64,000 bases of DNA from Oscillospiraceae bacterium (lineage in GTDB: Bacteria; Bacillota; Clostridia; Oscillospirales; SIG627). Shown piece after piece: positions 1 through 49,887 of this stretch. Within the stretch, counting starts at the first letter, position 1. Each line of letters starts with the position of its first letter. Position numbers and translations under genes: made by a program. Under the pieces are notes generated by a model. That model searched no databases and was not told the DNA's origin. It worked only from the letters and a program-made list of their open reading frames with translations. Location of the stretch: assembly GCA_015065325.1 (NCBI GenBank), contig SVQO01000003.1:62001-126000 (forward strand), given 5' to 3'.

Positions 1-1
1 C

Positions 2-94
2 GAACGGGAATTTGCCCCCATTAAAAACAAAGAGGGCATCGACTCCGTCGTATCCGCCCGCGAGCTCCTTGCCAAAAACGGCATTATTTGCTAA
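2..94 (+). CDS. UDPGP-family nucleotidyltransferase, C-terminal end only
   Basis: Only the last 30 codons are inside the window, ending at TAA 92-94; the 5' part lies upstream. The visible tail begins EREFAPIKN and continues GIDSVVSARELL, which matches the conserved C-terminal block of the UTP-dependent hexose-1-phosphate / N-acetylhexosamine-1-phosphate uridylyltransferase (UDPGP) family, enzymes that make UDP-sugars from UTP in the cytoplasm. Assignment rests on this short motif alone, so the exact sugar specificity cannot be read. The next gene is a broken surface-protein remnant, so no operon context is available. Confidence 0.6.
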   Translation, partial: EREFAPIKNKEGIDSVVSARELLAKNGIIC

Positions 95-125
95 TTTTCG
101 TTTATTAAATTGCATTTACAGGTGA

Positions 126-473
126 AATACGATAAAAAAAGACGCATTCAAAGACTGCTTCAATCTTACCTCCGTCACCATCCCAAGCAGTGTCGTTTCC
201 ATTACAGACTCTGCATTTGACGGGTGCTATGCGTTAAAGGACGTTCAGTACGGCGGTACAAAGTCTGATTGCAAGAGAATTTCAATCGGCACGTGCAACG
301 AATCCCTTACCGATGCCACTTGGCACTGCAAGGACGGAAAAGCATCTTTTGGAGAAGAAAAAAACGACTCCCCTATTGTTCTCATCGCAATTATTTCTGT
401 CGCTACCATTGTTATTCTCGCAGGAGCCATCACGGCTTTTCTCATCATTAAGAAAAAGAAAGCCGCTAAGTAA
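126..473 (+). pseudogene. remnant of a leucine-rich repeat (BspA-type) surface protein with C-terminal membrane anchor
   Basis: The reading frame opens just after a TGA at 123-125 and has no plausible start codon. It encodes about 1.5 LRR_5 repeats (AFKDCFNLTSVTIPSSV, then ITDSAFDGCYALKDV), a C-terminal cap ending in WHC, a membrane helix of about 20 hydrophobic residues and a final basic KKKKAAK tail. The signal peptide and most repeats are missing. A GTG at 122 would enter the frame only with a one-base shift in the A7 run at 134-140, so frameshift plus deletion is the simplest reading. The cap resembles the end of the LRR part of the large surface protein at 45107-49873, suggesting a related ancestor. 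Confidence 0.6.
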
Positions 474-531
474 ATAAGAAAAAAGGGGACTGTAAAAAAG
501 CCGGCAAAACAAAGATTTCCCTAAAACAGAA

Positions 532-572
532 AAATGCTATAGAGACACACAGTTTGTGTTTCTATAGCATTT
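532..572. terminator. bidirectional intrinsic terminator
   Basis: An 18-bp stem (arms 532-549 and 555-572, one G-T pair) around a CAGTT loop, A-rich on the left and followed by TTCTTTTTCT on the right. It separates the plus-strand remnant from the convergent minus-strand LysR gene and can serve both. Confidence 0.85.
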
Positions 573-597
573 CTTTTTCTATAAAGATTTGGTTCTT

Positions 598-1536
598 TTA
601 ACCTTCCAGCGTTTGGATGGCTTCGTCTTTTGCTTTTTCGATCTCCTCGATGAATCGGCGGTCAATTTCGGTCAAGCGGTAGCCGTTGCGGTAGATCAAG
701 ACGTCCTTGTAGGACAGAGAAAGACCGCGGACCCGCTTTTGGATCACGTTATGGCGGTCCAAAACGTCCTGAGACAAGGGAGAGACCCACATAAAGGTAT
801 TGGGAACCTGCCCCAAAAGGTCGTATTGGGTGCCACGCTCGTAGATATAGATTTTCTTATCGGTCAGATCGGAAAACTCCGCTTTCTTCACGTAGGCGAT
901 CTGAAGCGAAGGAACGTAGGGATCTCCGTGTACGATCTCGATACAGTCCTTGAAATCCTCTCGGGAAAGATTTTCCTTATTTGCAAGAGGGTGAGAACGG
1001 TCCATCAGAGCAACGTATTCGAATTCCCAGATATCACGGTGCTTGAGATCTTTGTCCTCCATCATTTTCAGAAAATAAGACTCGAAGGAGGTCTGATAAC
1101 GAATAATTCCCAAATTGTAATTACTCTGCAAAATATTGTTGATGGCGCGGTAGGAATTGGTCTCTTTATAGTTCAGATCCATTTCCTTGGAGGTATCCAG
1201 CGAATTGACGAGTCTGGTAAAGGCTCTGGTAATATAGCAGGCGCGAGGCGTGGAAATATTAAAACTCTGCTGCTCCGGCTCCGCCTTCTGATAGACTGCC
1301 TCCAGTTCCTCAAGCTTTGACAGGATCTCCTTCGCCTGAAAGAGGAATTCCTCACCCTGAGAGGTGGTCACGATGCCCTTGGAGGTTCTCTTAAAAATAG
1401 TGATCCCCAAGCTTTCCTCCAGCTCCTTGATGGCGCGGGAAAGGTTTGGCTGGCTCATAAACAGGTTGGTTGCCGCTCCCGTAATAGAACGGGTACGCTC
1501 AACCTCTACGGCGTATTTCAAATGGAGTATATTCAA
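598..1536 (-). CDS. LysR-family transcriptional regulator
   Basis: A 312-residue protein of the usual LysR length. Residues 1-60 form the winged helix-turn-helix (SITGAATNLFMSQPNLSRAI, then LEESLGITIFKRT), followed by a linker helix and a periplasmic-binding-like effector domain to about residue 300. The start is a TTG at 1536 preceded by AAGGAGG with 6-base spacing; no ATG is as well placed. It lies 23 bases downstream of typA on the same strand, so it is probably read from the typA promoter, with the terminator at 532-572 ending both. LysR proteins usually control a divergent neighbour, but none is present here, so the target and inducer are unknown. Confidence 0.9.
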   Translation of the reverse strand: MNILHLKYAVEVERTRSITGAATNLFMSQPNLSRAIKELEESLGITIFKRTSKGIVTTSQGEEFLFQAKEILSKLEELEAVYQKAEPEQQSFNISTPRACYITRAFTRLVNSLDTSKEMDLNYKETNSYRAINNILQSNYNLGIIRYQTSFESYFLKMMEDKDLKHRDIWEFEYVALMDRSHPLANKENLSREDFKDCIEIVHGDPYVPSLQIAYVKKAEFSDLTDKKIYIYERGTQYDLLGQVPNTFMWVSPLSQDVLDRHNVIQKRVRGLSLSYKDVLIYRNGYRLTEIDRRFIEEIEKAKDEAIQTLEG

Positions 1537-1559
1537 AATCGTCCTCCTTTTCGGGTCGC

Positions 1560-3383
1560 TTACGCGTTCTTTTCCTTTGCTTTTGCTTTGGCGCGAAGCT
1601 CGGTATTCAGGATCTTCTTGCGCAGACGAAGGTTCTTGGGCGTTACCTCCAGAAGCTCATCCTCGGCAATAAATTCCATACACTTTTCCAGGCTCATCTG
1701 CCTTGCGGGAGTAATGCGGAGCGCCTCATCCGCACCGGTGGAACGGATAGCGGTCAAGTGCTTTTTCTTACAAACGTTTACTACGATATCACGAACGTCA
1801 GAGGCTTCACCGACGATCATTCCCTCGTAAACGGGCACCTGAACACCGATGAACATTGCACCGCGATCTTGGGCGTTGAACATTCCGTAGGAGGTGGAAA
1901 CACCGTCCTCCCAAGCAACCAGTGATCCGCGGGAACGGGCGGAAAGCCCCGCTTTCATCGGATAATAGCCGTCAAATTCCGTATTAACAACGGCGTTTCC
2001 TTTTGCTGCGGTCAGCAGCTCTGCACGGCATCCGATCATACCGCGGCTGGTGATGGTAAACTCCATACGGGTATAACCTGCGGCAGTGGGAGCCATTTGT
2101 AAAAGTTCTCCCTTACGCTGAGAAATCAGATCGATCACCGTTCCGCAGAATTCGTCGGGGCAGTCGATATAAAGTTTTTCATAAGGCTCACAGAGAACTC
2201 CGTCGATCTCCTTGGTAATAACCGTGGGGCGGGATACCTGAAATTCGTAGCCCTGGCGGCGCATGTTTTCGATCAGAACCGACAAATGCAATTCACCTCT
2301 GCCCGAAACCTTCAAGGTATCGGTGGTATCCGTATCCTCTACTCTCAGAGAAATATTGGACTCCAATTCACGGTAGAGTCTTTCGCGGATGTGGCGGCTG
2401 GTCACGTAGGTTCCGTCCTGTCCTGCAAAGGGAGAGGTGGAAACGGAAAAATACATAGACAGCACGGGATCTTCGATCTCTACGAAGGGAAGCCCCTCGG
2501 GAGTGTTCACGTCGCAGATGGTATCGCCGATCTCAATATCCGAAATACCGGTCAGACAAACGATATCTCCAGCTTCTGCAAAGGTGGTTGCCGTCTTCTT
2601 CAGCTTATCGAAGGTATAAATGCCAACGATCTTGCTTTTCTGAACGGTTCCGTCACGACGAACGACAGAAACGGGACTTTTTTCGTGGATGCCGCCACGC
2701 AGGATCTTGCCCACTGCCATACGTCCGGTATAATCGTTAAAGTCGATGTTGGAAACCATCATTTGGAAAGGAGCCTCTGCATCCACGGAGGGATGAGGGA
2801 TCTCCCCGATGATCACGTCGAACAGACACTTCAGATCGTCGGTCTTTACGTTGTAATCGGTGGTCGCCCATCCGTCTCTGCCGGAAGCGTAGATGACGGG
2901 AAGATCCAACTGCTCCTCGGTGGCACCAAGGTCGATGAGAAGGTCGTACATTTCATCGGTAACCTCCTTGGGTCGTGCCATGGGGCGGTCGATCTTATTG
3001 ACTACGATCACGGGAGTAAGACCCAGAGCAAGCGCCTTCTTTAAAACGGTTCTGGTCTGGGGCATACAACCCTCGTAGGCATCTACCAAAAGGATGACGC
3101 CATCGACCATAGAAAGGCTTCTCTCCACCTCGCCGCCGAAGTCTGCGTGACCGGGGGTATCTACGATATTGACCTTGATCCCTTCATAGTACAAAGAAGT
3201 ATTTTTTGCAAGGATGGTAATGCCTCTTTCCTTTTCGAGATCGTTGGAGTCCATCACGCGCTCCTCTACCTGCTCGTTGGTACGGAAGGTACCGGTCTGC
3301 TTGAGCATGGCGTCTACCAGAGTGGTCTTGCCGTGGTCAACGTGAGCGATAATGGCTATATTGCGAATTTTTTCTTTTTCCAT
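1560..3383 (-). CDS. typA: ribosome-associated GTPase TypA/BipA
   Basis: A 607-residue translational GTPase of the BipA/TypA family, close to the family's usual 605-615. G1 is AHVDHGKTT (residues 13-21), G3 [10 protein letters not shown] (75-84), G4 NKIDRP (129-134); EF-G-like domains III and V and the BipA-specific C-terminal domain follow. It acts in ribosome assembly and stress or cold adaptation at the 70S/50S particle. The start was placed at ATG 3383 because AAAAGGTG sits 6-7 bases upstream; a GTG at 3392 lies inside that ribosome binding site. A SigA promoter lies at 3435-3463, and LysR follows downstream. Confidence 0.97.
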
Positions 3384-3434
3384 AAATATCACCTTTTCAT
3401 TTCCAGCAAAAAATCAAAACATAATCACAGGTTA

Positions 3435-3463
3435 ATTATATCGCAAACCCTCGTTTTTTGCAA
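3435..3463 (-). promoter_or_regulatory. SigA-type promoter of typA
   Basis: On the minus strand, TTGCAA (3458-3463), a 17-base spacer and TATAAT (3435-3440), about 50 bases upstream of the typA start. Confidence 0.8.
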
Positions 3464-3530
3464 GGAAAAAGGAGGTGCAAACCGCAAAATTTCAATTTTC
3501 GATATGATTTTATTCCTTTTTTCACAAAAA

Positions 3531-3559
3531 AACAGCAGGTGAAGCTTTCACCTGCTGTT
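3531..3559 (-). terminator. intrinsic terminator of the PHP/M20 operon
   Basis: A 13-bp GC-rich stem (AACAGCAGGTGAA and its complement) with a 3-base loop; on the minus strand it is followed by TTTTTTTG. It lies 13 bases after the abgB-like stop codon. Confidence 0.9.
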
Positions 3560-3572
3560 TATCGAGGTAAAT

Positions 3573-5003
3573 TTACCAAATCTCGGGCTTGGCATCGGCG
3601 GGAAGCGCGTTGGGATAGGTTTCTCCGTCCAGATGCAAGAGCCAGTTTTCCTTTGCTTTTTCCACCAGAGAGGCATCATTGAAGAATTCCAGCGCGGTGC
3701 AGGCAAGAGCCTTCCCTGCCAACAGCATACCCTTGTGAGCAATACTGCTCTTTCCTTGTGCTACGGTCTGCCAGGAGTGACCGGCAGGGCCTACGGCAAG
3801 AGTAGGAATGTGGCACCAGGCGGTAGGAACAACCCAGCTGACGTCTCCTACGTCGGTAGAACCGCCGGAGGAGGGCCTTTTACCGTCGTTGGGGAGAAAG
3901 TCCCAAATGGGCTTTTCCAGGATTTCCGAATCCACCTTGCCCAGAAGTTTCTTTTTCTTTTCGCGAAGGCCTTCCGCCTCAATCTCGGACATGGTTTCCT
4001 GGAACCGTTTGGCATAAGCGTACTCCTCCTCGGTGTAACCGATGGGAAGAAACGCCTTGATATTTTCCTCCAGATGATCCTGAAGAACGTCGTTTCCGAT
4101 GTAGTCGGAATATGCGGCAACCTGTCGGATATCCACGGTGGTCTCGGTCATCAGTGCAGCACCCTGTGCTACCTTGCAAACTCGTTCGTACAGCTCCTTT
4201 ACCTGGTGCACGTGAGGAGCACGGATGGCATAAAGCACCTGTGCCTCTGCCTGCACCACGTTGGGCGCGGTACCGCCGGAATTGGTTACGGCGTAGTGAA
4301 TACGCGCCTTATCGATCATATGCTCGCGCATATAGTTGACGCCCACGTTCATCAGCTCTACTGCGTCCAGCGCACTTCTGCCCAAATGAGGAGAACCGGC
4401 AGCGTGAGACGCCTTACCGTGGAAGGTAAAGAATACGCGGAAGTTTGCAAGAGAGCCGGTTCCGTTGACACGGCAGCAACCGCCGCCGGGATGCCAGGTA
4501 AGGGCAAGATCACAGTCGTCGAAGGCACCGTCACGAACCATAAAGGCTTTACCGCCCGCATTTTCCTCTGCGGGACAGCCGTAGTAACGAACGGTACCGG
4601 GAATGCCGTGCTTTTCCATATATTCCTTCAACGCAACGACTGCGGCAACGTTGCCGGCGCCTAAAAGATTGTGTCCGCAGCCGTGTCCGTCACCACCGGG
4701 AACGATGGGATCGTGATGGGCAACGTCTGCCTTTTGGGACAGGCCCGAAAGCGCATCGTACTCACCGAGAAAGCCGATGACGGGCTTACCGGAGCCCGCT
4801 TCGGCATAGAAAGCAGTCTCGCCGCCTCCGATGGTACGGTTGATCCGAAATCCCTTTTTCTCAAAATATTCGATCTGAAGAGCTACGGATTTGAATTCCT
4901 GAAAACGGGACTCTGCATAATCCCAGATCTTATCGGAAAGTTCAATAAATTCCGCTCTCTTTTCTTCAACAATAGCGGAAATCTCTTCTCTGTAATTATT
5001 CAT
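3573..5003 (-). CDS. M20-family amidohydrolase, AbgB-like
   Basis: A 476-residue metal-dependent amidohydrolase most like AbgB, the subunit of p-aminobenzoyl-glutamate hydrolase; related M20D proteins cleave N-acyl amino acids or dipeptides. Zn-site motifs are GEYDALSG (about residue 80), GCGHNLLG (about 112) and AEENAGGK (about 150), with a dimerisation lid domain around residues 190-310. There is no signal peptide, so it is cytoplasmic. The ATG at 5003 is preferred over the one at 5018 because GGAG lies 7 bases before it; the upstream ATG overlaps the stop of the preceding gene. It is the last gene of the operon starting at 10106. A partner AbgA is absent, so the p-aminobenzoyl-glutamate substrate is only a family guess. 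Confidence 0.85.
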   Translation of the reverse strand: MNNYREEISAIVEEKRAEFIELSDKIWDYAESRFQEFKSVALQIEYFEKKGFRINRTIGGGETAFYAEAGSGKPVIGFLGEYDALSGLSQKADVAHHDPIVPGGDGHGCGHNLLGAGNVAAVVALKEYMEKHGIPGTVRYYGCPAEENAGGKAFMVRDGAFDDCDLALTWHPGGGCCRVNGTGSLANFRVFFTFHGKASHAAGSPHLGRSALDAVELMNVGVNYMREHMIDKARIHYAVTNSGGTAPNVVQAEAQVLYAIRAPHVHQVKELYERVCKVAQGAALMTETTVDIRQVAAYSDYIGNDVLQDHLEENIKAFLPIGYTEEEYAYAKRFQETMSEIEAEGLREKKKKLLGKVDSEILEKPIWDFLPNDGKRPSSGGSTDVGDVSWVVPTAWCHIPTLAVGPAGHSWQTVAQGKSSIAHKGMLLAGKALACTALEFFNDASLVEKAKENWLLHLDGETYPNALPADAKPEIW

Positions 5004-5014
5004 AAGTATCTCCT

Positions 5015-6451
5015 TCATTTGGAAAGAATCTCATCACATCCCAAAACAAAATGGGTCACCACGCGCAAGGACTGGAAAAACTGATCGAGAACCATACACT
5101 CGTCTCGCTGATGGGCAGCACCATGTCCTGCGGGAAGTGCCGGCTTTTCCACCGTACTTTCGGGATCGTGTGCGCGAAAACCAATGGAAAATGAATTCTT
5201 CAGTGCACGGGAATAGGTACCTCCGGAAAGAAGCTGGGGTCCTTTGTCCACACCGGTCAGTTCCTTGTAAAGCGCACAAAGAACGGGAGGAACGGGGTTA
5301 TCGTCCTCTAAACGGAAGCCCGGACGGTTATTCAACTCAACAATATCGAAGCCGAGCGCATCCCAGCTCTTATGCAAGGTATCCTCCACCGCATTGGGAG
5401 CAAAGGTGTTGCCGTAGCGAATATCCATATTGATCTTCAAAAAAGCGTCTTCCACGCGAACCATTCCGCAAGCGGCGGTCAGCTTACCGAAAGCGGGATC
5501 CTCGTGGGCAAGGCCAAGACCTGCGCCGTAGTGGCAACCGATAGCTTTTGCCGCCTTTTTCATCTGATCGCGATCGGATCCGTTCAAAGCCTTTGCCTCA
5601 GCAAGCAACCGGAAAGCAATCAGCGCGGCATTGACCGAATCCTCCGGATGAGCCGCGTGCTTGGAAACACCGCGAGAAACCAAAAGCAAAGCATCCTTTT
5701 CCTCGGTCAAAGAAAATTCGTTTCTGTCTGCAATCAAGGTGGCAATTTCTTCCTTCAATGCCTGCTTTTTGACGAGACGGACGGTCACGTAATCCAAAAC
5801 AATGTTGGAGGCGTCTCCGCCGTTGAAATCCAGGATATCGGTCAAGGGCGTACGGCTCTTGGTCCAGACGCGCAAAATTCCTTTTTCACCGACGCTGCAA
5901 GGGTAAGAACTGTCGGGTGCCAGATTGATCTCCGGCATTTTTTCGTACTTTGCAAAAGCCGTTACATCCTGCATACCGCTTTCCTCATTGGAGCCGATAA
6001 ACGCCTGTACGGTGCTGGTAACGGGAAGATCAAGCTCTTTGATCATACGCATCGCGTAAAGGCTCTGGATCACCCCCGCCTTATTATCCCCTACGCCGCG
6101 TCCGAATGCCACGCCGTCGATACAGCAGGGCTCAAAGGGGCGGGTCTTGATCCAGCCGTCCCCTGCGGGGACTACGTCACTGTGGCCGTAAAGACCGATG
6201 GTCTTATCCCCTCTCTCCAGGCGTGCAAGCGCATAACCGCGCTTGGCTTCCACGCGTACGGGAAAGCCGTTTTTCTCAAATAGCGCAGCCGCGGCATTCA
6301 GCGCCTCGGCGCACGCCTTGCCGAAGGGAGCGTTTTTCTCCGCTTCACCGCGAACGGAAGGGATGCGGCACAAGGCGAAAAGATCCTCGATCATTTCTTC
6401 TTTGTGACTTGCGATCCATGCACGGATCTTGGCATCATACTGTGTGTTCAT
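5015..6451 (-). CDS. M20-family dipeptidase, PepV/Sapep-like
   Basis: A 478-residue dinuclear zinc peptidase. The metal motif GLYGHSDVVPAGDGW (about residues 85-99), the bridging Asp in GRGVGDNKAG (about 117-126) and the catalytic NEESG (about 155) match the M20A PepV branch, which releases amino acids from dipeptides in the cytoplasm. No signal peptide. The start follows GTGAGGTAGTCAG. It sits between a PHP-type hydrolase gene (9 bases upstream) and the AbgB-like gene (its stop overlaps an upstream ATG of that gene), so all are one transcript. The association suggests that the operon product chain ends in free amino acids, but this is inference. Confidence 0.88.
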   Translation of the reverse strand: MNTQYDAKIRAWIASHKEEMIEDLFALCRIPSVRGEAEKNAPFGKACAEALNAAAALFEKNGFPVRVEAKRGYALARLERGDKTIGLYGHSDVVPAGDGWIKTRPFEPCCIDGVAFGRGVGDNKAGVIQSLYAMRMIKELDLPVTSTVQAFIGSNEESGMQDVTAFAKYEKMPEINLAPDSSYPCSVGEKGILRVWTKSRTPLTDILDFNGGDASNIVLDYVTVRLVKKQALKEEIATLIADRNEFSLTEEKDALLLVSRGVSKHAAHPEDSVNAALIAFRLLAEAKALNGSDRDQMKKAAKAIGCHYGAGLGLAHEDPAFGKLTAACGMVRVEDAFLKINMDIRYGNTFAPNAVEDTLHKSWDALGFDIVELNNRPGFRLEDDNPVPPVLCALYKELTGVDKGPQLLSGGTYSRALKNSFSIGFRAHDPESTVEKPALPAGHGAAHQRDECMVLDQFFQSLRVVTHFVLGCDEILSK

Positions 6452-6460
6452 CTGACTACC

Positions 6461-8269
6461 TCACTTTTTTCCGAAGGGAGAAAGCTCCGCCATTACGATT
6501 CCCGCATCTGCAAAGGCTTTTCTCTGACTGTTCTTACCCACGCTTGCCAAAATCTCAAGGCGAACGTAGCGAGCCTTGCGGGGGGTAAAGCGAATGATCT
6601 CCTCTCCGCCGTAAACGCGGAACAGACCTTCCTCACAGAATTCAAACTTCTCACCGTCCAAACTGGAGGAAATACGGAACACGGAGGGGAAACGGCAGAA
6701 TTTGTCGGGAGGCGTCAAGCCCTCCTCCTTGATCATCTTGTGTCCCAGTCTCTGAGCACAATGACCCAAGGCGTACAGCTCCTTCTCCTCCTGCATATCG
6801 ATCAAGATCGAACAGGTAGTGCCTTCGGTTTCCCAAAACGTTTCGGGATCGGAATTGATCAGGATCGCGGCGTCCTTACCGCTGACCTCATCTACGCAGG
6901 TGAAGGCGGATTTATCAAAGGGAACCACATCGTCTGCGGGGACGGGGTCGATGGCTCTGCCCGTCCAGACCGGGCAAGACCAGACCTTTCTTCCCTCCTC
7001 GTCCCACATACGCAGGAAGAAGTAGCGCGCCGTGGTGCTCTTTACTTCAAAGTCGAAGCCATCGGGAGAGGTAACGTCAAATTCCGCCACGGGCTTACCG
7101 TAATCGGAAATGATCTGACAGCGACGAATGTAGGTGGTAGGATCCTCCTCGAAATAGGAGATCTGTGCGTGGAAGGAATAGGTGTCGGTTTCCGCAAGAT
7201 CAGCGGGAGCTACTTTGCCGTTGACGGAATAACGAAGCTTCACATTTCCGCTCATACAAGCGTAAACGCGGTTGGAGCGAATGGCATCGATAAAGGCTTC
7301 CTTGCTCTTTTCCTTTGCCATAAAGATCGTCTTACCCGGGAAGCGCGCAAAGCCCCACTCGGGACCGTGGGCATCGCTGGAGCAGGTGGTACAAACGCGG
7401 AAACCGTTATCCAGCGCAACGGAATAGGTATATTCGTTGACTAGGTTTGCGTGGCGGTCACCGCCGTCGCCCATTTCCACCAGCTTGATATGCTCGTAGT
7501 GCTTGGGTGTACGGTGCTTTTCCAAGGAGAAATTCCAAATTCCGCCGCGGGAATGACCGATTGCCTGAGGATGTGCCAGACAGCAGATGGCAAAGGGACT
7601 GTCGGAAAGATCCGAGAAATACTGCTCCCAATCTGCTGCCGCAGACATATTGTTGGCGTTGACGGTAACGATCTCGCCGGAATTCTTATGCTCCAGACCG
7701 AAGCGGTCATTTTCAAAAATATTCACCTCGGATTCACTGCCGGGGAACATAATGATACTCTTGGGATCGGTCAAACGGTCATCGGTAAAGCCGCGGAAGA
7801 AATCTCTCTGATTGGATGAGTCGGAATGGTCGGTAATTACACCGAAATCCATTTTCCCGTCTGCCATAATGGTTTTGATCATGTCGATCTGATACGGAGG
7901 CTGGCGGTCAATAAATTTCAGATGATTGTGCTCGTTGGTAGTGTGGTCGTGAAAATCTCCGCGGAAATAATCAAATTCTTCCTCCGCCTCGGCGTGGCGG
8001 AAGGGGGTGACCTCTACGGGACAAACGTAATCCTTTCCCAGATAAGTTGCTGTTACCGTCGCCGTGCCCGGGGCAAGAAGGGTCAAAAGAACCCCGTTTG
8101 CAAAGGGAAGCTCGGGGATATCCGCAAAGCTTCGAATGGAAACGCAATCTCCCTGCACGTGCCAGGTAATCGGCTCAGCGGTCAGATTTGCATTCTCACA
8201 AAGCAACTGCAAGGGCAAAACGTTACCGCAGAAGGAGGTGATCTTTTCGTCACTGAAATAAATTTTCAT
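6461..8269 (-). CDS. PHP-domain metallohydrolase with Ig-like and discoidin-like flanks (paralogue 1)
   Basis: A 602-residue protein whose centre carries the four PHP metal motifs: HDHT (107-110), ITDHSD (145-150), LAHPQAIGHS (231-240) and SSDAHG (297-302), as in the CehA/McbA-like branch of the PHP superfamily (esterase/phosphoesterase-type metal enzymes). Residues about 1-90 look like a bacterial Ig-like (BIG2) domain (GTATVTATYLG), and about 440-602 resembles an F5/8 type C sandwich (ARYVRLEILASVG). There is no signal peptide, odd for a protein with carbohydrate-binding-like flanks. It starts after AAGGAG, 16 bases downstream of its paralogue, with M20 peptidase genes downstream. Substrate unknown. 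Confidence 0.75.
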   Translation of the reverse strand: MKIYFSDEKITSFCGNVLPLQLLCENANLTAEPITWHVQGDCVSIRSFADIPELPFANGVLLTLLAPGTATVTATYLGKDYVCPVEVTPFRHAEAEEEFDYFRGDFHDHTTNEHNHLKFIDRQPPYQIDMIKTIMADGKMDFGVITDHSDSSNQRDFFRGFTDDRLTDPKSIIMFPGSESEVNIFENDRFGLEHKNSGEIVTVNANNMSAAADWEQYFSDLSDSPFAICCLAHPQAIGHSRGGIWNFSLEKHRTPKHYEHIKLVEMGDGGDRHANLVNEYTYSVALDNGFRVCTTCSSDAHGPEWGFARFPGKTIFMAKEKSKEAFIDAIRSNRVYACMSGNVKLRYSVNGKVAPADLAETDTYSFHAQISYFEEDPTTYIRRCQIISDYGKPVAEFDVTSPDGFDFEVKSTTARYFFLRMWDEEGRKVWSCPVWTGRAIDPVPADDVVPFDKSAFTCVDEVSGKDAAILINSDPETFWETEGTTCSILIDMQEEKELYALGHCAQRLGHKMIKEEGLTPPDKFCRFPSVFRISSSLDGEKFEFCEEGLFRVYGGEEIIRFTPRKARYVRLEILASVGKNSQRKAFADAGIVMAELSPFGKK

Positions 8270-8285
8270 ACTTATACTCCTTAAT

Positions 8286-10106
8286 TTATTTGATCAGAGG
8301 ACGCAGATAGAAGGGGGTCAACTCAGCAATGGCGATCTTGGCATCAACGAATTTTTCCCGCTGACATTCTTTGCCTACGGTAGTCAGGATCTCGAGCTTT
8401 AAATATCTTGCATCAACGGGAGTGATCCGAATCATTTCCTCGGCGCTGAATACGCGGAATCTGCCGTGAGATACCACCTTGAATTCCTCGTTGTCAACGC
8501 TGGCGGAAAGGACGTATTCCGAGGGGAACTCACAGTTTTTATCGGGGGGGATCAAGCCCTCTGCCTTGATCTCCTTTTGGCTGAGAATGCGGTGGTAAAC
8601 ACCCAGAGCGTGAACGGTCTTTACCTCCTGCAGATCCATCAGAAGAGTGGCGGTTGTACCTTCGGACATCCAATGCTCGTGCACGTCGTTGTTGATCAGC
8701 ACGCTTGCATCCTTTCCGTTTTCAAGTTCCGTAACGGTAAAGCCTTCCTTCTCCATGGGGAGCAGATCCTCGTTATGATAATAAACGGGTTCTCTGCCGG
8801 TCCAAACGGGGCAAGACCAGGTCTTTCTGCCCTCTGCATCCCACATACGCAGGAAAAAGTAGCAGGCAGAGTTGCTTTCAACGTGGAAATCGAGAGAGCG
8901 AAGATCCTCACCCTCAGTCTCTGCTACGCACATACCGCCGTTGGAAATGACCTGACAGTGCTTGATGACGGTATCGGGCTCGTCGCGCAGATATCCGATA
9001 TCTACGTGAATATCGTAGGAAAGTGCAAAAGGAAGGGTGGCGGGAGCCGTTTTACCGTTGACGGTATAGCGGATCTTCACGTTGCCCGTAGAGGAGGCGT
9101 ACAAGCGGTTGGAAAGAATGGCGTCGTAAAAGGCTTCCTTGGTCTTCTCCTTTGCCATAATGATCGTCTTACCGGGGAAACGCTCAAAGCCCCAAACGGG
9201 ACCGTGTGCATCGCTGGAGCAAGTGGGACATACCTTAAAGCCCGCATCGAGAGCTACGGAATAGGTAAATTCGTTGAGCAAATTCGCCTGGCGGTCGGTA
9301 CCGTCTCCGATCTCCACAAGTCTTACCATTTGACGGAAACGGGGGGAGGTGTTGGTGGTCAAGCGGAAATTCCAAACGCCCTTGCAGGAATGACCAATGA
9401 TCTGAGGATGTGCCAAGCAGGAGATGGCGTAGGGACTCATAGAATAATCGTCAAAGAACGCCTTCCAGCTGTGTGTAGAGGTGCAGGACTGTGCGTTCAC
9501 GGTTACGATCTCACCGGAATTTTTGTGAAATACGCCAAAACGGTCTTCCTCGTGGGAGGCAACCTCAGCCTCGGCACCGGGAAACAGGATCAGCTCGTCC
9601 TGCCCTGCGTCGTAGGCATCGGCAAAGCCGCGGAAATACTCACGGGGATTGAGACAGCCTGCGTGATCGGAAACCACACCAAAGTCCATCAAACCGCTGG
9701 ATTTCATTTTCTTGATATACTCTGCGGGATAGATCTCGGGACCTCTTGCGGAAAACTCCTTGCGGTTGTGAATGTTGCAGGTGTGATCGTGGAAGTCGCC
9801 GATGTAATAATTAAATTCCTCGTCAGAAGAATAAGTGCGGCGCTCGTGAATGCTGACGGGGCAAGTGTATTCCACACCGTTAAAGGTAGCAGTCACGTTT
9901 GCCTTACCGGGATACAAAAGGGTCAGCAAAACGCCGTTGGTAAAGCTGGCTTCGTACTTTCCGACGTAGGTTTTGATCTGAACGCAGGGATCGTCGGTCT
10001 TCCAGGTAATGTCCTCCTTGGAAAAATCCTCGTCTCCCAGCAAACGCAGGGGCAATACGTCCCCTACGTAAGAATCTATTTTTTCGAATGATAACTTTCT
10101 TTCCAT
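8286..10106 (-). CDS. PHP-domain metallohydrolase with Ig-like and discoidin-like flanks (paralogue 2)
   Basis: A 606-residue tandem paralogue of the preceding entry with the same three-part plan: Ig-like N-terminus (KANVTATFNG near residue 70), PHP core with HDHT (106-109), VVSDHAG (about 144), LAHPQIIGHS (about 230) and SSDAHG (about 298), and a C-terminal F5/8-like region ending ARYLKLEILTTVG. Both copies keep all metal motifs, so neither looks degenerate. It is the first gene of the operon, with GGAGG before the ATG and a SigA promoter at 10139-10167. No signal peptide or membrane segment is seen. The duplication suggests two related substrates or two steps, but neither is known. Confidence 0.75.
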   Translation of the reverse strand: MERKLSFEKIDSYVGDVLPLRLLGDEDFSKEDITWKTDDPCVQIKTYVGKYEASFTNGVLLTLLYPGKANVTATFNGVEYTCPVSIHERRTYSSDEEFNYYIGDFHDHTCNIHNRKEFSARGPEIYPAEYIKKMKSSGLMDFGVVSDHAGCLNPREYFRGFADAYDAGQDELILFPGAEAEVASHEEDRFGVFHKNSGEIVTVNAQSCTSTHSWKAFFDDYSMSPYAISCLAHPQIIGHSCKGVWNFRLTTNTSPRFRQMVRLVEIGDGTDRQANLLNEFTYSVALDAGFKVCPTCSSDAHGPVWGFERFPGKTIIMAKEKTKEAFYDAILSNRLYASSTGNVKIRYTVNGKTAPATLPFALSYDIHVDIGYLRDEPDTVIKHCQVISNGGMCVAETEGEDLRSLDFHVESNSACYFFLRMWDAEGRKTWSCPVWTGREPVYYHNEDLLPMEKEGFTVTELENGKDASVLINNDVHEHWMSEGTTATLLMDLQEVKTVHALGVYHRILSQKEIKAEGLIPPDKNCEFPSEYVLSASVDNEEFKVVSHGRFRVFSAEEMIRITPVDARYLKLEILTTVGKECQREKFVDAKIAIAELTPFYLRPLIK

Positions 10107-10138
10107 CTTTTCCTCCCAAGATCAAAGCAGTTTTTTCC

Positions 10139-10167
10139 ATCTTAGCACTTCACGCCCGAAAATGCAA
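10139..10167 (-). promoter_or_regulatory. SigA-type promoter of the PHP/M20 operon
   Basis: Minus strand TTGCAT (10162-10167), 17-base spacer, TAAGAT (10139-10144); the first ATG is 33 bases further on. Confidence 0.7.
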
Positions 10168-10221
10168 GGAAAACGGCAATAAAAGTACAACAAAAATCAA
10201 GAAAAAAACAAAGAAAAACAA

Positions 10222-10259
10222 AAACAAGAGCCAAAAACAAAACGTCCTTGCTCTTGTTT
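10222..10259 (-). terminator. intrinsic terminator after the YitT-like gene
   Basis: A 10-bp stem (10222-10231 with 10250-10259) followed on the minus strand by T-rich sequence. The remaining bases of the 10107-10300 gap hold only this and the operon promoter. Confidence 0.7.
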
Positions 10260-10300
10260 ATAAATCGTTTTTTTCGAAAAATAACGAAAATCACAACAGC

Positions 10301-11128
10301 TCAAAATCCCTCTCCCCGCACCTTCCGAACGTCGCTGATATAGGTAAATGCAGCTCGGTCATATTTTTCCACGATTCCGAGAACGGTGGATACTTCCCTG
10401 CTTCGAACGATACATACGAGACTTTTGCCGTCCCTTTCGGTATAGAAGCCGTGGGTATAAAACCCTGTGACGCCACGCTCCATTTTCTCCATAATTTCCG
10501 CGGCAATTTGCTCACTCTCGGGAGAAATGACGGTGACGGATTTCGCAAAATCACCTCGGATCAAAAGAAAATCCGTTACCTTGGTGCTGATGTAGAGGGA
10601 GATCACAGAGTAAAGCATAATGGAGAAATTGCGAAAAACGATGCCGGAAAGGAGAATGACGGCGGTATCAATAACAAGGATAAAGGTGGCGATGCTCACG
10701 TGAGGGAAAATACGGTTCAAGATCAACGCGGCATAATCGGAACCGCCGGTAGAGCCGTCTCGCATCACCACAAGACCTACACCGACTCCCACCAAAACAC
10801 CGCCGAATACCGCTCCCAAAAGCAGATCGCTTTCCGCGAATACGACCCCTTCAAAAAGCTCCAGAAACAGGGAGAGAAGCACGATTCCCGCGATGCTTTT
10901 CGGGATCGCCTCTTTGGGCAAGGTACGAAAGCCGAAGAAAAAAAGCAGTGCGTTAAACGCAAGAGTCGTTAAGGAAAGAGGCAGGTCAAACAAATGCAAC
11001 AGGACCACGGATACACCGCTGATCCCACCGGTGGAAATTTTGAAAGGAGCGAGAAAGAAATCAATGGCAAACGCCATTACCATAGAGCCTGCAGCAATAA
11101 AAAGATAATCAAAAAATCTTTTTTTCAT
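10301..11128 (-). CDS. YitT-family membrane protein
   Basis: A 275-residue protein with about five hydrophobic segments between residues 8 and 175, including the family motifs STGGISGVS (32-40) and DGSTGGSDYAA (about 124-134), then a soluble DUF2179 domain (about 215-270, with GVTGFYTHGFYT). YitT/DUF161 proteins are common in Bacillota and located in the cytoplasmic membrane; their transport substrate is not established. The ATG at 11128 follows GGGGGATTT. It is transcribed alone from a promoter that interlocks with that of the opposite AraC gene. Confidence 0.92.
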   Translation of the reverse strand: MKKRFFDYLFIAAGSMVMAFAIDFFLAPFKISTGGISGVSVVLLHLFDLPLSLTTLAFNALLFFFGFRTLPKEAIPKSIAGIVLLSLFLELFEGVVFAESDLLLGAVFGGVLVGVGVGLVVMRDGSTGGSDYAALILNRIFPHVSIATFILVIDTAVILLSGIVFRNFSIMLYSVISLYISTKVTDFLLIRGDFAKSVTVISPESEQIAAEIMEKMERGVTGFYTHGFYTERDGKSLVCIVRSREVSTVLGIVEKYDRAAFTYISDVRKVRGEGF

Positions 11129-11137
11129 AAATCCCCC

Positions 11138-11165
11138 TTGACAATCCCGCGGTTTATGCTACAAT
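11138..11165 (+). promoter_or_regulatory. promoter of the AraC gene at 11241
   Basis: TTGACA (11138-11143), 16-base spacer, TACAAT (11160-11165). Its -10 box is the left arm of a perfect palindrome, TACAAT-TCT-ATTGTA (11160-11174). Confidence 0.75.
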
Positions 11166-11168
11166 TCT

Positions 11169-11197
11169 ATTGTAATTTTATGTCCTATTCAAGTCAA
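11169..11197 (-). promoter_or_regulatory. promoter of the YitT-like gene
   Basis: Minus strand TTGACT (11192-11197), 17-base spacer, TACAAT (11169-11174). The -10 box is the right arm of the palindrome shared with the plus-strand promoter, so the two promoters face each other over the same DNA. Confidence 0.75.
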
Positions 11198-11240
11198 AAT
11201 AATCATTGTTGCAGTCATTTTTTAACTTTTTTGAGGTGCT

Positions 11241-12053
11241 ATGAAAGCGGAATTTAACATTGAACGGGAAAAACAAAACTTACTTTTTTACGAAGAAAGC
11301 ATTAACGATGCCGCGCCCATTGCCTTTCACTCGCAGGTGGAGCTGTTCTTCGTGGACGAGGGAGAAATGGTGGCGACGGTGGGAAACCGTCAAAAGCTTT
11401 TGAAGGCGGGAGAAATGGCAGTATCCTTAAGCTTTGAGGCTCACGCCTATTACACACCCGAGGCATCCCGCTCCACGGTTTTGATCATTCCCACCTATCT
11501 TTGCCCCGAATTTATTGAGGAAACGGGAGGAAAACGAACAGAAAACCCCTTTATCACAGACGGAAAAACCGTTGCCCGTATCCGCGAGCTGATCACGTTG
11601 CTGAACAAATGTGAGCATTCCCCCTTGGAGCAAAAGGGCTATCTGTATTTGATCCTGGGTCTGCTTTTGCGGCAGCTTCCATTGGCGGAGGGATGCCACG
11701 AAATGGATCCATCCCTCTCCTCCAGGCTTTTGCTTTATATCAACTCCAATTTTCAGAAGGATATTACCCTTGCCTCTATTGCTGAGGAATTCGGCTATCA
11801 CCCCAGTTACCTCTCCCGTTATTTCAAAGCTACCTTCCGTATGGGGCTCAATCAATATCTGACCACGGTACGTTTGAAGAACGCTTTGCTTTTGATGAAC
11901 GAGAAAAATTCCAAACACAATTTGACTTATTGTGCCCTGGAAAGCGGCTTCCATTCTCTACGCACCTTTCACAGAACGTTTTTGAAGGAATTCGGAATGT
12001 CCCCAAAGGAATACCTAAAATCCCTCCCCCCCGAGGAGATCATTTCGATATAA
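11241..12053 (+). CDS. AraC-family transcriptional regulator
   Basis: A 270-residue regulator with an N-terminal cupin-like sensor (residues about 20-100) and a C-terminal pair of helix-turn-helix motifs: ITLASIAEEFGYHPSYLSRYFK (about 177-198) and the second near LTYCALESGFHSLRTFHRTF, ending in the typical FGMSPKEYLKS. The ATG follows GAGGTGCT. It is monocistronic, closed by the terminator at 12053-12090, and faces the YitT-like gene through shared promoter DNA, which makes that gene its likely target. The inducer is unknown; the cupin suggests a sugar or other small molecule. Confidence 0.9.
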   Translation: MKAEFNIEREKQNLLFYEESINDAAPIAFHSQVELFFVDEGEMVATVGNRQKLLKAGEMAVSLSFEAHAYYTPEASRSTVLIIPTYLCPEFIEETGGKRTENPFITDGKTVARIRELITLLNKCEHSPLEQKGYLYLILGLLLRQLPLAEGCHEMDPSLSSRLLLYINSNFQKDITLASIAEEFGYHPSYLSRYFKATFRMGLNQYLTTVRLKNALLLMNEKNSKHNLTYCALESGFHSLRTFHRTFLKEFGMSPKEYLKSLPPEEIISI

Positions 12054-12090
12054 AAAATACTCCGCAGCAAAATTGCTGCGGAGTATTTTT
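12053..12090. terminator. intrinsic terminator, AraC gene
   Basis: A near-perfect hairpin of about 17 bp (AAAAATACTCCGCAGCAA and its complement) with AATT at the tip, ending in TTTTT; A-rich on the other side, so it may also stop minus-strand reading from the lipoprotein pair. Confidence 0.9.
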
Positions 12091-12169
12091 CACTTATTTG
12101 GCGAAACAGCTTTCTTGTCTGTCAGAGCAGGCATAAATCCGCTCTTTGATCGCGATAAATCCTATACGA

Positions 12170-12958
12170 TCACAGAAAGAAATCCTTAATTCCGGACCAA
12201 AAGGTGCACTCCTCCCACATAGCTAAAACTTCCCCGTCGGTTCTGAAAATAACGAAAGCACTCGATCCCAAAAACCACGAAGGTTTTCTCTTGACAAGCC
12301 AGCAAGAATCTAAGTAACTATAATACACCTCAATCTTGTTAGAAGAATCACCGAATTTTTCTTCCAATGCAAGTTTCCCCTGGGAAACTGCGGTTTTAAT
12401 GTCCTCCGAAGCGGCAAGCACCATATCAGAAGGATATTTCTCTCTTTGCTCTTCGTAATCAACTATGCTAAAAGATTGCACTTGAATATCTTTATTTTCA
12501 TCTACCCGATAGAAGGTTACGGTCTGACCTTCTTCATAAACAGATGAGGCTTTCACCTCGGCAACAAAGTAATTTTCACTGGCGCGGGGCTCGGTGATTT
12601 CATATTGCTCATAAGGGTCAGATTTTCTAGCGATGTCAAACTTATCATCTAGTTTTTTGTCAACAATCACTGCACTTTGATAATTTTCATAAGAAACAGC
12701 TTCTAATCCGCCAGTTACGTACGTAATAAAAACCATCTCGATCTGAATTCCTTCTTTTTTTACCGTTCCCAGCCAATACCAGTCATCAAATGCCTCAAAA
12801 CCAACTTCAAATCTCACGCATCCATCTTCCGATTCCCAAATTGAGCCAAGAAAAGAATACGGCATTTCATTGGAAATCCACGGTGGAATACAACCGGACA
12901 GAGGCAGGAGAATCAAACAAAAAGCAAAAACGATACATAACTTTTTTAATTGCTTCAT
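12170..12958 (-). CDS. predicted lipoprotein of unknown function
   Basis: A 262-residue protein beginning with a signal peptide (MKQLKKL then a hydrophobic core) and lipobox LSGC with the lipidated Cys at residue 23, so it should be anchored on the outside of the cell membrane. The mature part is a mixed alpha/beta sequence with no motif I recognise. It starts after AAGGATATC, 19 bases downstream of another lipoprotein gene, and shares its promoter at 14261-14290. The pairing suggests a joint surface role. No catalytic residues are evident. Confidence 0.75.
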   Translation of the reverse strand: MKQLKKLCIVFAFCLILLPLSGCIPPWISNEMPYSFLGSIWESEDGCVRFEVGFEAFDDWYWLGTVKKEGIQIEMVFITYVTGGLEAVSYENYQSAVIVDKKLDDKFDIARKSDPYEQYEITEPRASENYFVAEVKASSVYEEGQTVTFYRVDENKDIQVQSFSIVDYEEQREKYPSDMVLAASEDIKTAVSQGKLALEEKFGDSSNKIEVYYSYLDSCWLVKRKPSWFLGSSAFVIFRTDGEVLAMWEECTFWSGIKDFFL

Positions 12959-12977
12959 CTTTTGATATCCTTATCAT

Positions 12978-14213
12978 TCAATTCACGCGGTAACCGTAAA
13001 TGTACTTATCCGCGTACCATTCCGGTCCGTTTTGATCGCCGTTAAGAACCTCAAAAGAATCCTCATAGACCCTCAGCACGACGTAATGAGCGCCGGCGCC
13101 AAGATCTTTGGGATTATTCCAAAATGCGATCAAATAAAGACCCGGATCTGACAACTCTTTGGCTTTCACCGGCGTACAATTGATGCCGTAGTCCTTTAAG
13201 ACGTCATCTACGACAAAAGGATTTATTCCCAAATAACCGTCGATGATCAAGCCGCTGCCGCTTTCAATATCGCGAATCGTTTCCGAAAGGGTAGATTCAA
13301 CACCTTTGATAACTTTTACGTTATGAATTGCGACGGCACCGCAGCCGTTTTCCCCTACGTTGCCGGATCCCACCTTCATATCCTTGATCGAAGGATCTTT
13401 TTGATTCGTTACGATCGTATTTTTGGCGTCGGCAGACTCATCTTTGGAATCGGGATCATAGAAGAAATCTTCCTCAAACGTTGCTTCGGCATTCGGCGCC
13501 GAAGTCTCCGGTTTTTTCAAATCGTCTTTGTCTTTTTTGTTTTCCGTCTCCTCTTTTTTGTTCTCGGGGAGTGACGCCTCCGGAGAACCGTACAAGAACG
13601 TTACCGTAGCATCTTTTCCTCTTGCAAATTCAAAGTTATACTGCAAATTCTTTACGTACAAGGTTCTTTCGCGGATCATCCTCAAATAATCAATGTCCCG
13701 ATCCAGCAAATATTGACTGCCCGGATGCAGGTCATATCCCGTATTGGAGTAAATACTTGCGATGAATTTGAATTCTTCAAGCAACGCCTTTTCCCATTTT
13801 TCTTCATACAATAAAAAACGGTCTCGGTCCGAAGCATTTAACAAAGCGGCATACGATTTGCTGGAAAAATGCAGTTCTTCCAGCCACAGATCGGTATATT
13901 TCTTCTGGTGCAATCTCATTTCGTAGATCGTAGTGCCGGGATCGTCCGCCTCATAGTCCCGATCAAGAGGGTTATTTTTGATCAATTTGTAAAACTCTGA
14001 CTCGTCGTCTTTCTCGTCGGAGGGCAAAGTCGTCTTGTCGTTTTCCGTTTCCGAAAGGGTATTTCTCGCCTCTTCCGTTTCCGAAAGGGGCGCCCGGGGA
14101 TCTTCCGTTTTGAGCTGCAATTCTTCGTTTGTGCACGAGCACAGAAGAAAAAGTCCGGCTGCAAGCACCAATACCGACAGCAACGCCGATACAAAACAAA
14201 GTTTATTTTTCAT
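12978..14213 (-). CDS. lipoprotein with C39-like cysteine peptidase domain
   Basis: A 411-residue lipoprotein: hydrophobic leader and lipobox LCSC (Cys about 27), then three 10-residue repeats of the type TE-x(6)-SE (about 35-65), a helical part with W/E-rich sequence slightly like LprI/DUF1311 proteins (about 95-195), a charged Lys/Glu linker, and a C-terminal papain-like fold: GENGCGAVAIHNV with Cys 291, GAHYVVLR with His about 376, and NGDQNG supplying the third residue. This arrangement matches C39-like domains, which cut peptides or only bind them. ATG 14213 is chosen over a TTG at 14222, which is too close to the AAGGAG. It is the first gene of a lipoprotein pair. Confidence 0.7.
   Translation of the reverse strand: MKNKLCFVSALLSVLVLAAGLFLLCSCTNEELQLKTEDPRAPLSETEEARNTLSETENDKTTLPSDEKDDESEFYKLIKNNPLDRDYEADDPGTTIYEMRLHQKKYTDLWLEELHFSSKSYAALLNASDRDRFLLYEEKWEKALLEEFKFIASIYSNTGYDLHPGSQYLLDRDIDYLRMIRERTLYVKNLQYNFEFARGKDATVTFLYGSPEASLPENKKEETENKKDKDDLKKPETSAPNAEATFEEDFFYDPDSKDESADAKNTIVTNQKDPSIKDMKVGSGNVGENGCGAVAIHNVKVIKGVESTLSETIRDIESGSGLIIDGYLGINPFVVDDVLKDYGINCTPVKAKELSDPGLYLIAFWNNPKDLGAGAHYVVLRVYEDSFEVLNGDQNGPEWYADKYIYGYRVN
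14041..14110. repeat. 30-bp tandem repeat inside the lipoprotein gene
   Basis: Two full copies of a TTCCGTTTCCGAAAGGG core 30 bases apart (about 14042-14059 and 14072-14089) and a partial third copy near 14102. Translated, they give three 10-residue units just after the lipidated Cys, a flexible spacer between membrane and enzyme domain. Confidence 0.75.
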
Positions 14214-14260
14214 AGTATCCAATCTCCTTATTCGAAGGACGGTTCATTCTTCACATTTCC

Positions 14261-14290
14261 ATTATCGCAAGACAAAGCGAATTTTGTCAA
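14261..14290 (-). promoter_or_regulatory. promoter of the lipoprotein pair
   Basis: Minus strand TTGACA (14285-14290), 18-base spacer, GATAAT (14261-14266), about 48 bases upstream of the first ATG. Confidence 0.7.
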
Positions 14291-14397
14291 GGGAATTTTA
14301 GGCGAATTTGACACCGAAAAAGAAATTTCGTTTACCTACACAAAAGCAATGTTAGCTTTTTGTCAAATCCACATAGTTTTCGATTTTCGGGAATAAT

Positions 14398-14431
14398 AAA
14401 AAATCCGCTTCGTTTGAAGCGGATTTTTTGT
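14398..14431 (-). terminator. intrinsic terminator of the glp operon
   Basis: Strong stem AAAATCCGCTTC with its complement around a 4-base loop, followed on the minus strand by a T run. Lies 11 bases after the DUF1667 stop codon. Confidence 0.9.
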
Positions 14432-14442
14432 CAGGTCGTGGC

Positions 14443-14787
14443 TTAGTCGATGCTTTTGGTGGCAATGATATCGGCACCGAACACGTCTGCAAGGAGCACG
14501 TCGCCTATGGCGATGGGTGCATTGGCTTTTGCGGCGCGGATCTTTTCCATTGCTTCGAACATGCTCTCCTTGGGAATGGGAGCGGAGGTCTTTACGCTGA
14601 CCATGGTATCCTCGCGGTTTTCCACGCGGATAAAGGAGGTTACGGTGCGGACGGGGTGGGTGCACTCCTCGATGGCGTACTTTTTACCTCTGGGGCAAAT
14701 GTTGCCCACAACGGAAAGGCCTTCTGCGCTTTCCTCAACCGTAAGACTGCAGCCTTTGGGGCAAATGATACAGGTTAAATTTCTCAT
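14443..14787 (-). CDS. DUF1667 protein, third subunit of anaerobic glycerol-3-phosphate dehydrogenase system
   Basis: A 114-residue protein with CIICPKGC (residues 6-13) and NICPRGKKYA near residue 29, Cys motifs conserved in DUF1667 and suited to metal or iron-sulfur binding. Members are almost always encoded behind a GlpA-like and a FAD oxidoreductase gene. Here the start overlaps the stop of that oxidoreductase gene by ATGA, indicating translational coupling. It probably takes part in electron transfer from glycerol-3-phosphate oxidation; this is inferred from context, not shown by the sequence. Confidence 0.88.
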   Translation of the reverse strand: MRNLTCIICPKGCSLTVEESAEGLSVVGNICPRGKKYAIEECTHPVRTVTSFIRVENREDTMVSVKTSAPIPKESMFEAMEKIRAAKANAPIAIGDVLLADVFGADIIATKSID

Positions 14788-16034
14788 TTCACTTCCTCCA
14801 AGCTAACCGTAATTTCTTCACCCTGCAAGGGGAACAATTCTTCCTTCAAGGTGATCTTTTCCATTTCACCGGGAGCAACGCGGGGCTTTACAGCCGTTGC
14901 CAGAACGGTATCACCGCTCTTTGCGGTGATCTTTACCTTTCCGAGAGGAGCGGAAACACGGAAATACAGATCGATCTTCTGTGCTTTTTCGGTATGGATC
15001 CGCTGAGGAAGCACATAACGAACACCTTCGCCGGGCTTCACGGAAGCGATCTTGCCCTCCTCGGTCTCGCCTTTTGCATATTTTGCAGCGGCAACACCTG
15101 CGATCTCACCTTCGTCGGAAACGAAATCGACCAGGTCGTGTACCTGAAGCACGTTGCCGCAGGAGAACACACCGGGGATAGAGGTCTGACGGTTTTCATC
15201 TACCAGAGCACCGCTGGTAACACGGTCCATTTCAATTCCGGCAGTAAGAGTTACCTCGTTTTCGGGGATCAAACCGACGGAGAGAAGCAGAGTATCACAA
15301 GGGATAAAGCGCTCGGTTCCCTCCACCGCTTTGCGGTCTGGACCAACTTGTGCAATGGTAACGCCCTCCAGGCGCTCTCTGCCGTGGATCTTAGTCACGG
15401 TGGTAGAAAGGTACAGCGGAATTCCGAAGTCCTCCAGGCACTGAACGATATTACGGGTCAGACCACCGGAATAAGACATCAATTCGCAAACCGCTTCAAC
15501 CTTGGCACCCTCCAGAGTCATTCTGCGCGCCATGATCAGTCCGATATCGCCGGAGCCGAGGATGACTGCACGCTTGCCTACGGAAAAGCCCTCGATATTC
15601 ATCAGTCTCTGAGCACAGCCTGCGCTGTAAACGCCTGCGGGACGGTCACCGGGAATTCCGATGGCACCGCGGCTTCTTTCGCGGCAACCCATTGCCAAGA
15701 TCACGCTCTTTGCCTGAATGGACTGATAGCCGTCTCTGCCCTGGAAGGTAACCACCTTATCGGGGGTCAGAGAAAGAACCATGGTTTCGGAATAGACCTT
15801 GATGCCTCTTTCCTTGACCATTTTCTCATAGACTGCGGCATATTCGGGGCCGGTCATTTCCTTGCCCATTTTGTGCAGACCGAAGCCTGCGTGGATGCAC
15901 TGCATCAAAATACCGCCCAAGCGGGAGTCACGGTTCAGGATCACCACGTCGCGGCATCCTGCATCATAGGCCGCTACTGCCGCCGCCATACCTGCGGGGC
16001 CGCCGCCGATTACAACAATATCGTGTTCTGTCAT
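14784..16034 (-). CDS. FAD/NAD-dependent oxidoreductase, GlpB-equivalent partner of GlpA
   Basis: A 416-residue pyridine nucleotide-disulfide-type flavoprotein. The FAD dinucleotide fold begins VVIGGGPAGMAAA (residues about 6-18); a second NAD(P) fold is near residue 175 (AVILGSGDIGLIMARR), and the FAD-closing motif is PGVFSCGNVLQVHD (about 287). A C-terminal extension of about 100 residues follows. In Bacillota lacking classical glpB/glpC, this protein accompanies GlpA and DUF1667. It is 9 bases downstream of glpA with a strong AAGGAGG. It probably passes electrons from glycerol-3-phosphate to a carrier; the acceptor is unknown. Confidence 0.88.
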   Translation of the reverse strand: MTEHDIVVIGGGPAGMAAAVAAYDAGCRDVVILNRDSRLGGILMQCIHAGFGLHKMGKEMTGPEYAAVYEKMVKERGIKVYSETMVLSLTPDKVVTFQGRDGYQSIQAKSVILAMGCRERSRGAIGIPGDRPAGVYSAGCAQRLMNIEGFSVGKRAVILGSGDIGLIMARRMTLEGAKVEAVCELMSYSGGLTRNIVQCLEDFGIPLYLSTTVTKIHGRERLEGVTIAQVGPDRKAVEGTERFIPCDTLLLSVGLIPENEVTLTAGIEMDRVTSGALVDENRQTSIPGVFSCGNVLQVHDLVDFVSDEGEIAGVAAAKYAKGETEEGKIASVKPGEGVRYVLPQRIHTEKAQKIDLYFRVSAPLGKVKITAKSGDTVLATAVKPRVAPGEMEKITLKEELFPLQGEEITVSLEEVK

Positions 16035-21144: not shown

Positions 21145-21167
21145 ACTGCTTCCCTCGTTTTATGAAA

Positions 21168-21983: not shown

Positions 21984-21987
21984 GATT

Positions 21988-49873: not shown

Positions 49874-49887
49874 TTTGAGTTTCCTGT

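Follow-up and report, generated by a model that had tools for sequence, protein, structure and literature searches.

In a window of 64,000 nucleotides of an Oscillospiraceae genome, four genes lie in tandem on the minus strand (10106-3573), in the order PHP1, PHP2, M20a, and M20b. PHP1 (8286..10106, minus strand) is an ORF of 606 amino acids, and PHP2 (6461..8269, minus strand; 602 amino acids) is its tandem paralogue, showing 53% identity to PHP1 as well as the same architecture by alignment. These two genes are followed by M20a (5015..6451, minus strand; 478 amino acids), which belongs to the PepV/Sapep-type Mn-dependent dipeptidase family, and M20b (3573..5018, minus strand; 481 amino acids), which encodes an AbgB/HmrA/PM20D2-type amidohydrolase. 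The gaps between PHP1 and PHP2, PHP2 and M20a, and M20a and M20b are 16, 9, and -4 nt, respectively. All four ORFs were clearly recognized as coding by a codon-usage scan, which was trained first on the four-gene unit and its neighbouring genes and then retrained on the window; the tandem arrangement described in a first-pass annotation of this DNA was thus recovered at the same place and on the same strand.

A strong Rho-independent terminator (3530..3560, minus strand), consisting of a 14-bp stem and a T-run, lies 3' of M20b and closes the unit. The gap upstream of PHP1 (10107..10300, minus strand) contains, as seen by eye, a hairpin with a T-run after a YitT gene, a weak promoter-like element (TTGCAT-17-TAAGAT, with an extended -10; the promoter scan did not pick up this element), and a ribosome-binding site (GGGAGGA) 5' of PHP1. 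Judging from the spacing, direction, and terminator, the four genes are likely transcribed as one unit. Divergent from YitT, an AraC-family gene with a cupin-like domain (11241..12053, plus strand) is a possible regulator of this unit. In window positions 1-16000, no Rfam family scored as high as its gathering threshold. Elsewhere in the window, inspection by eye revealed an apparent rhamnose catabolism operon (18895-24623) with rhamnosidase-like, aldolase, isomerase, and kinase genes, as well as a 1639-residue ORF on the minus strand (45107-50026) for a large surface protein, in which leucine-rich-type repeats are combined with repeated Cys-rich units and a dockerin-like C-terminus.

The domain composition of the two PHP proteins was examined by profile searches and structure prediction. 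PHP1 is divided into a Big/Ig-like domain (about residues 1-95), a PHP metallohydrolase barrel (about residues 96-342), a beta-sandwich (about residues 343-440), and a CBM32-like F5/8 domain (about residues 445-603). Neither PHP1 nor PHP2 reached the Pfam PHP model (PF02811), and their Pfam F5/8 scores (27.8 and 27.6 bits, respectively) fell just short of the gathering score of 28.2. The AlphaFold2 model of PHP1, built with 11 relatives, had a pLDDT of 89.1 and a pTM of 0.89. Its PHP region is predicted to adopt the PHP barrel fold, with PDB 3E38 as the best match (Z 17.6 over 221 residues, rmsd 3.8), followed by 2ANU (Z 17.0) and 7RTY (Z 15.9). The C-terminal part (residues 447-602) matched a sialidase CBM32 module (Z 18, 1.9 A over 132 residues, 23% identity), and profile hits to CBM32 chains had an E-value of 2.9e-7; this part is thus modelled as a discoidin-like beta-sandwich of the CBM32/F5/8 type C. 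The N-terminal 100 residues, modelled alone, gave a pLDDT of 87 and matched the SU10 tail (Z 11.8), the Big_2-CBM56 structure 7quz (Z 10.2), and SbsC (Z 10), which points to a Big/Ig-like, seven-strand beta-sandwich resembling Big_2 domains. Structure prediction therefore bears out the Ig- and discoidin-like flanks that had been proposed from the sequence, together with the PHP barrel between them.

Such flanks are typical of extracellular glycan-binding proteins; however, no strongly hydrophobic N-terminal segment was present in 12 PHP family members, whereas two lipoprotein-like control proteins from the window had clear hydrophobic N-termini. These data agree with the earlier statement that the PHP proteins carry no signal peptide, and indicate that PHP1 and PHP2 are probably cytosolic. 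The C-terminal domain shares its fold with CBM32 modules such as those of the Micromonospora viridifaciens sialidase and the Clostridium perfringens enzymes, but differs from them in its probable cytosolic location and in scoring just under the Pfam threshold. The mean pairwise identity of this domain within the family is 35%, compared with 48% for the PHP domain, which is the best conserved part of the protein; because of this lower conservation, sugar binding by the CBM32-like domain is not assured.

We next consider the metal site. Both PHP1 and PHP2 contain the HxH, DH, HP, and DxH motifs, which do not vary in a 12-row alignment of the family; the PHP1 residues H106, H108, H148, E179, H233, D299, and H301 are all invariant there, as are H113 and E199. 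By this alignment, the family carries the motif set of the PHP superfamily (HxH, H, H, and DxH ligands plus a bridging Glu). The metal motifs reported by the first-pass annotation are hence present in both paralogues, but its description of motif I needed correction: the motif reads HDHTCNIH and HDHTTNEH in the two proteins, with His at position +7 in place of the usual Asp. In a listing of the motifs of 24 ORFs, this Asp-to-His change was seen wherever motif I of a family member could be read, with the deep-branching L085 (SDG retained) as the sole exception. In distant CehA-like PHP proteins, motif I is mostly HxH...SD.

The trinuclear site of the phosphodiesterase No-PDE offers a reference for these residues; its ligands are H61, H63, and D260 for the alpha metal, H203 and H142 for the beta metal, and D68, H93, and H262 for the gamma metal, with E135 as the bridging residue (PMC11656708). 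By motif order and spacing, residues of the PHP family map onto No-PDE H61, H63, D68, H93, E135, H203, D260, and H262, and H113 would stand in for the gamma ligand D68. No obvious His matching the beta ligand H142 was seen in the PHP family; E199 is a candidate for the missing beta-metal ligand. A His also serves at a comparable position in Escherichia coli YcdX, so by analogy the site in PHP1 and PHP2 is plausibly still trinuclear. The loss of the gamma-metal Asp in nearly all members, along with the lack of the expected beta-metal His, could also mean that the PHP domain is a degenerate, non-catalytic sugar-binding scaffold, for example one that tunes regulation. We consider this very improbable, because none of the other metal ligands varies among the aligned relatives, His is itself a metal ligand, and the PHP domain is conserved better than any other part of the protein.

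What bond such a site would cleave can be approached through two groups of characterized PHP enzymes. The first comprises Sb-PDE and No-PDE, which cleave phosphodiesters (PMC5460133, PMC11656708) at a trinuclear zinc site, and whose only homologue of known structure is PDB 3E38 (PMC11656708). The best fold match of PHP1 is this same structure (BVU_3505), and most of the metal ligands correspond one-to-one. On the other hand, Asp68 of the gamma metal is a His in the PHP family and the full trinuclear ligand set is not reproduced; moreover, Sb-PDE is secreted with a signal peptide and is far shorter (413 residues in the mature protein), while PHP1 and PHP2 have no evident signal peptide.

The second group is CehA/McbA, which cleaves carbamate esters (PMC8292978). 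The NCBIfam model CehA_McbA (NF038032) was the best label of all the family members tested, scoring 44-74 bits (60.8 bits for PHP1 and 68.6 bits for PHP2) with alignments that span almost all of the domain model, and the PHP domain followed by a beta-rich stretch is a shared feature. The affinity to CehA/McbA that had been noted earlier is therefore real, but membership is not supported, as every member tested scored under the curated cut-off of 80 bits. In addition, PHP1 and PHP2 differ from CehA/McbA by the added Big-like and CBM32-like domains and the His in motif I, and there is no carbamate context around them. NF038032 matches occur at 16 places in the 2 Mb source genome, none of them above the cut-off, and those besides the five family copies are other PHP-type proteins. 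An explanation in which PHP1 and PHP2 work like CehA/McbA as carboxyl-ester or carbamate hydrolases, with an ester from plants or a sugar ester as the substrate, draws on this label, on the hydrolysis of the natural carbamate physostigmine by CehA, which relies on PHP-type histidines (PMC8292978), and on a PHP-domain gene listed among the genes of one clone from a rumen carbamate-degradation screen (PMC5730166). With the sub-threshold scores and a nearest solved fold that falls in a group containing phosphodiesterases, we regard it as possible but rather unlikely.

The PHP family is rare and order-restricted. The source genome (a 2.06 Mb draft, about 89% complete) contains five full-length copies, of which the other four are 45-53% identical to PHP1, and four other PHP-positive genomes of the taxonomic family have one copy each. 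Within the order, 11 of 394 sampled genomes carry the family, while in a phylum-wide sample of 398 genomes it was found in the source genome only. On genome contigs, a single-sequence scan with PHP1 found no relatives, which were detected with an alignment query; those with names belong to Clostridia or Oscillospiraceae MAGs, and the ruminant gut is the source of many. In the phylogenetic tree, PHP1 and PHP2 are sisters; the support is moderate (84/86) and the branches are long, so a recent duplication is not claimed. Two further copies, on contig C35 of the source genome (locus L006; 6298-8106 and 13808-15616), are close to each other (79% identity) and lie on either side of a set of AraC, GDPD, FAD_oxidored, and sugar-isomerase genes with Gfo/Idh genes, which makes this a second PHP cluster in the source genome. 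At locus L022, a different PHP-domain protein (8563-9948) with its own N-terminal extension and the usual SDG motif is encoded directly upstream of a family PHP gene.

Both M20 assignments of the first-pass annotation were confirmed by family models. M20a scored 262.6 bits against TIGR01887 (cut-off 207.95) and aligned over nearly its full length to its nearest solved structures, 3khx and 1lfw, as expected for PepV/Sapep dipeptidases; in contrast, it fell far under the equivalog cut-offs of PepV proper (NF005591, 266.1 versus 435; TIGR01886, 199.7 versus 632). M20b scored 264.3 bits against TIGR01891 (cut-off 153.75), and its nearest solved structures are HmrA, the Xaa-Arg dipeptidase PM20D2, and an aminobenzoyl-glutamate utilization protein (alignments to 3ram, 7yh4, and 3io1). 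Relatives of M20b with 46-47% identity were found in three sister species, one of them directly 3' of a pheT-like gene; unlike M20b itself, they have no family PHP gene beside them on their contigs. No close relative of M20a was found in the other genus members searched.

A question raised by this layout is whether the PHP and M20 enzymes belong together. In tblastn searches with M20a and M20b as queries, an M20 gene was found in none of 20 distinct PHP-bearing stretches outside the window, some of which were short or ended by contig ends; among the loci examined, the PHP-M20 linkage thus occurs in the source genome only. The M20 pair thus seems to have been added in this lineage and not to be a core partner. 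Elsewhere, the PHP gene stands mostly in unrelated contexts, beside a co-directional GH39 gene 11 nt upstream (L082), close co-directional GH88 (L016), Gfo/Idh (L081), DUF4838 (L018), or D-serine-dehydratase-like (L068) genes, AraC, GDPD, and FAD_oxidored genes (L006), or BNR sialidase-like and calcineurin-like genes (L008).

These observations bear on the pathway proposed earlier, in which an amino acid or peptide conjugate would pass through a single dedicated route, its ester being opened by the PHP enzymes and its amide then cleaved by the M20 enzymes. The tight spacing of the four genes and their shared terminator are consistent with it, and M20 families do cut amides and dipeptides. Its sole basis, however, is the PHP-M20 linkage; the other PHP loci examined have no M20 gene, the sister-species relatives of M20b are not beside a family PHP, and the co-directional PHP partners elsewhere are unrelated enzymes. 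This largely corresponds to the situation that the first-pass annotation had itself named as speaking against its proposal, with relatives standing alone in unrelated contexts. Such a pathway is possible for the source genome alone, with no comparative support, and as a single dedicated route it is unlikely. The same restriction to one genome would fit a chance rearrangement that placed unrelated, non-cooperating genes in line, and so would the situation in a sister species: its UDP-sugar pyrophosphorylase, LysR, and TypA flank is shared with the window and a PHP gene is nearby, but there is no M20 gene and other genes occupy that place. Gaps of 16, 9, and -4 nt and a single terminator, however, suggest selection for joint expression, and we likewise judge a chance layout improbable.

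The genes around the PHP loci were further compared with a control: 19 PHP loci with 191 genes were set beside 40 regions, picked arbitrarily from related genomes, with 495 genes. AraC, Gfo/Idh, and AP_endonuc_2 (sugar isomerase) genes were not enriched at the PHP loci (p 0.36-0.39), and a carbohydrate role based on these recurring neighbours was dropped. EEP phosphodiesterase genes were present at 4 of the 19 PHP loci (two of the four being sister sequences) and 0 of the 40 control regions (p = 0.006, post hoc and uncorrected), and DUF4838 genes at 3 of 19 versus 1 of 40 (p 0.02, likewise post hoc and uncorrected). In two sister genomes, the EEP-type gene is convergent with the PHP gene (L083, 2290-3936; L084, 10542-12542), and at L018 and L081 it lies within 10 kb of it. 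The gene context hints only faintly, if at all, at chemistry on phosphodiesters or glycans.

Taken together, our tentative preference, held at somewhat less than even confidence, is that the four genes form a cytosolic catabolic hydrolase unit, in which the PHP enzymes cleave a sugar-containing phospho(di)ester and the M20 enzymes were added in this lineage. PHP1 and PHP2 would then be diverged tandem paralogues of a rare, order-restricted family, with a three-metal centre formed by H106, H108, H113, H148, E179, H233, D299, H301, and probably E199. Their target would be a phosphoester or phosphodiester, or with lower probability a carboxyl or carbamate ester, within an imported small molecule that contains a sugar, while the CBM32-like and Big-like domains may position the substrate or hold an oligomer together. 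The PHP product, or peptides imported alongside, would offer the M20 enzymes peptide or acyl-amide bonds to cleave. In this proposal, the bond type, substrate class, metal number, and cooperation of the four proteins are all inferred. The phospho(di)esterase reading derives from 3E38 as the best fold match, the ligand mapping onto No-PDE, and the phosphodiesterase-type neighbours, i.e., GDPD (L006), calcineurin-like (L008), and EEP genes. This bias is weak, since the EEP excess is post hoc and uncorrected and two of its four loci are sister sequences. Also against the proposal, the NCBIfam label points to the carbamate-cleaving CehA/McbA, the beta ligand H142 of No-PDE has no obvious His counterpart, the CBM32-like domain is less conserved than the PHP domain, and the four-gene unit includes no transporter.

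Literature searches on glycan-locus PHP proteins, on metallohydrolases of the CehA/McbA family, and on PsfC yielded no system that matched, and we came across no function ascribed to this family, whose sugar-binding-type domain would reside in the cytosol. To our knowledge, few PHP enzymes have known diester or ester substrates. What makes this locus interesting is the uncommon domain arrangement, the replaced metal ligand, and how narrowly the family is distributed, rather than a pathway. A bolder possibility, which we think doubtful, is that this undescribed intracellular PHP family, with its CBM32-like domain and His-substituted site, cuts an ester-type decoration of gut glycans (e.g., a sugar phosphodiester), and that the peptidases joined to it here allow a glycan-peptide conjugate to be taken apart completely in the cytosol. 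How specificity is set by PHP metal sites could be tested directly through the Asp-to-His change, and, if the PHP proteins do cleave a sugar ester or phosphodiester, they would represent a new type of enzyme for gut glycan breakdown.
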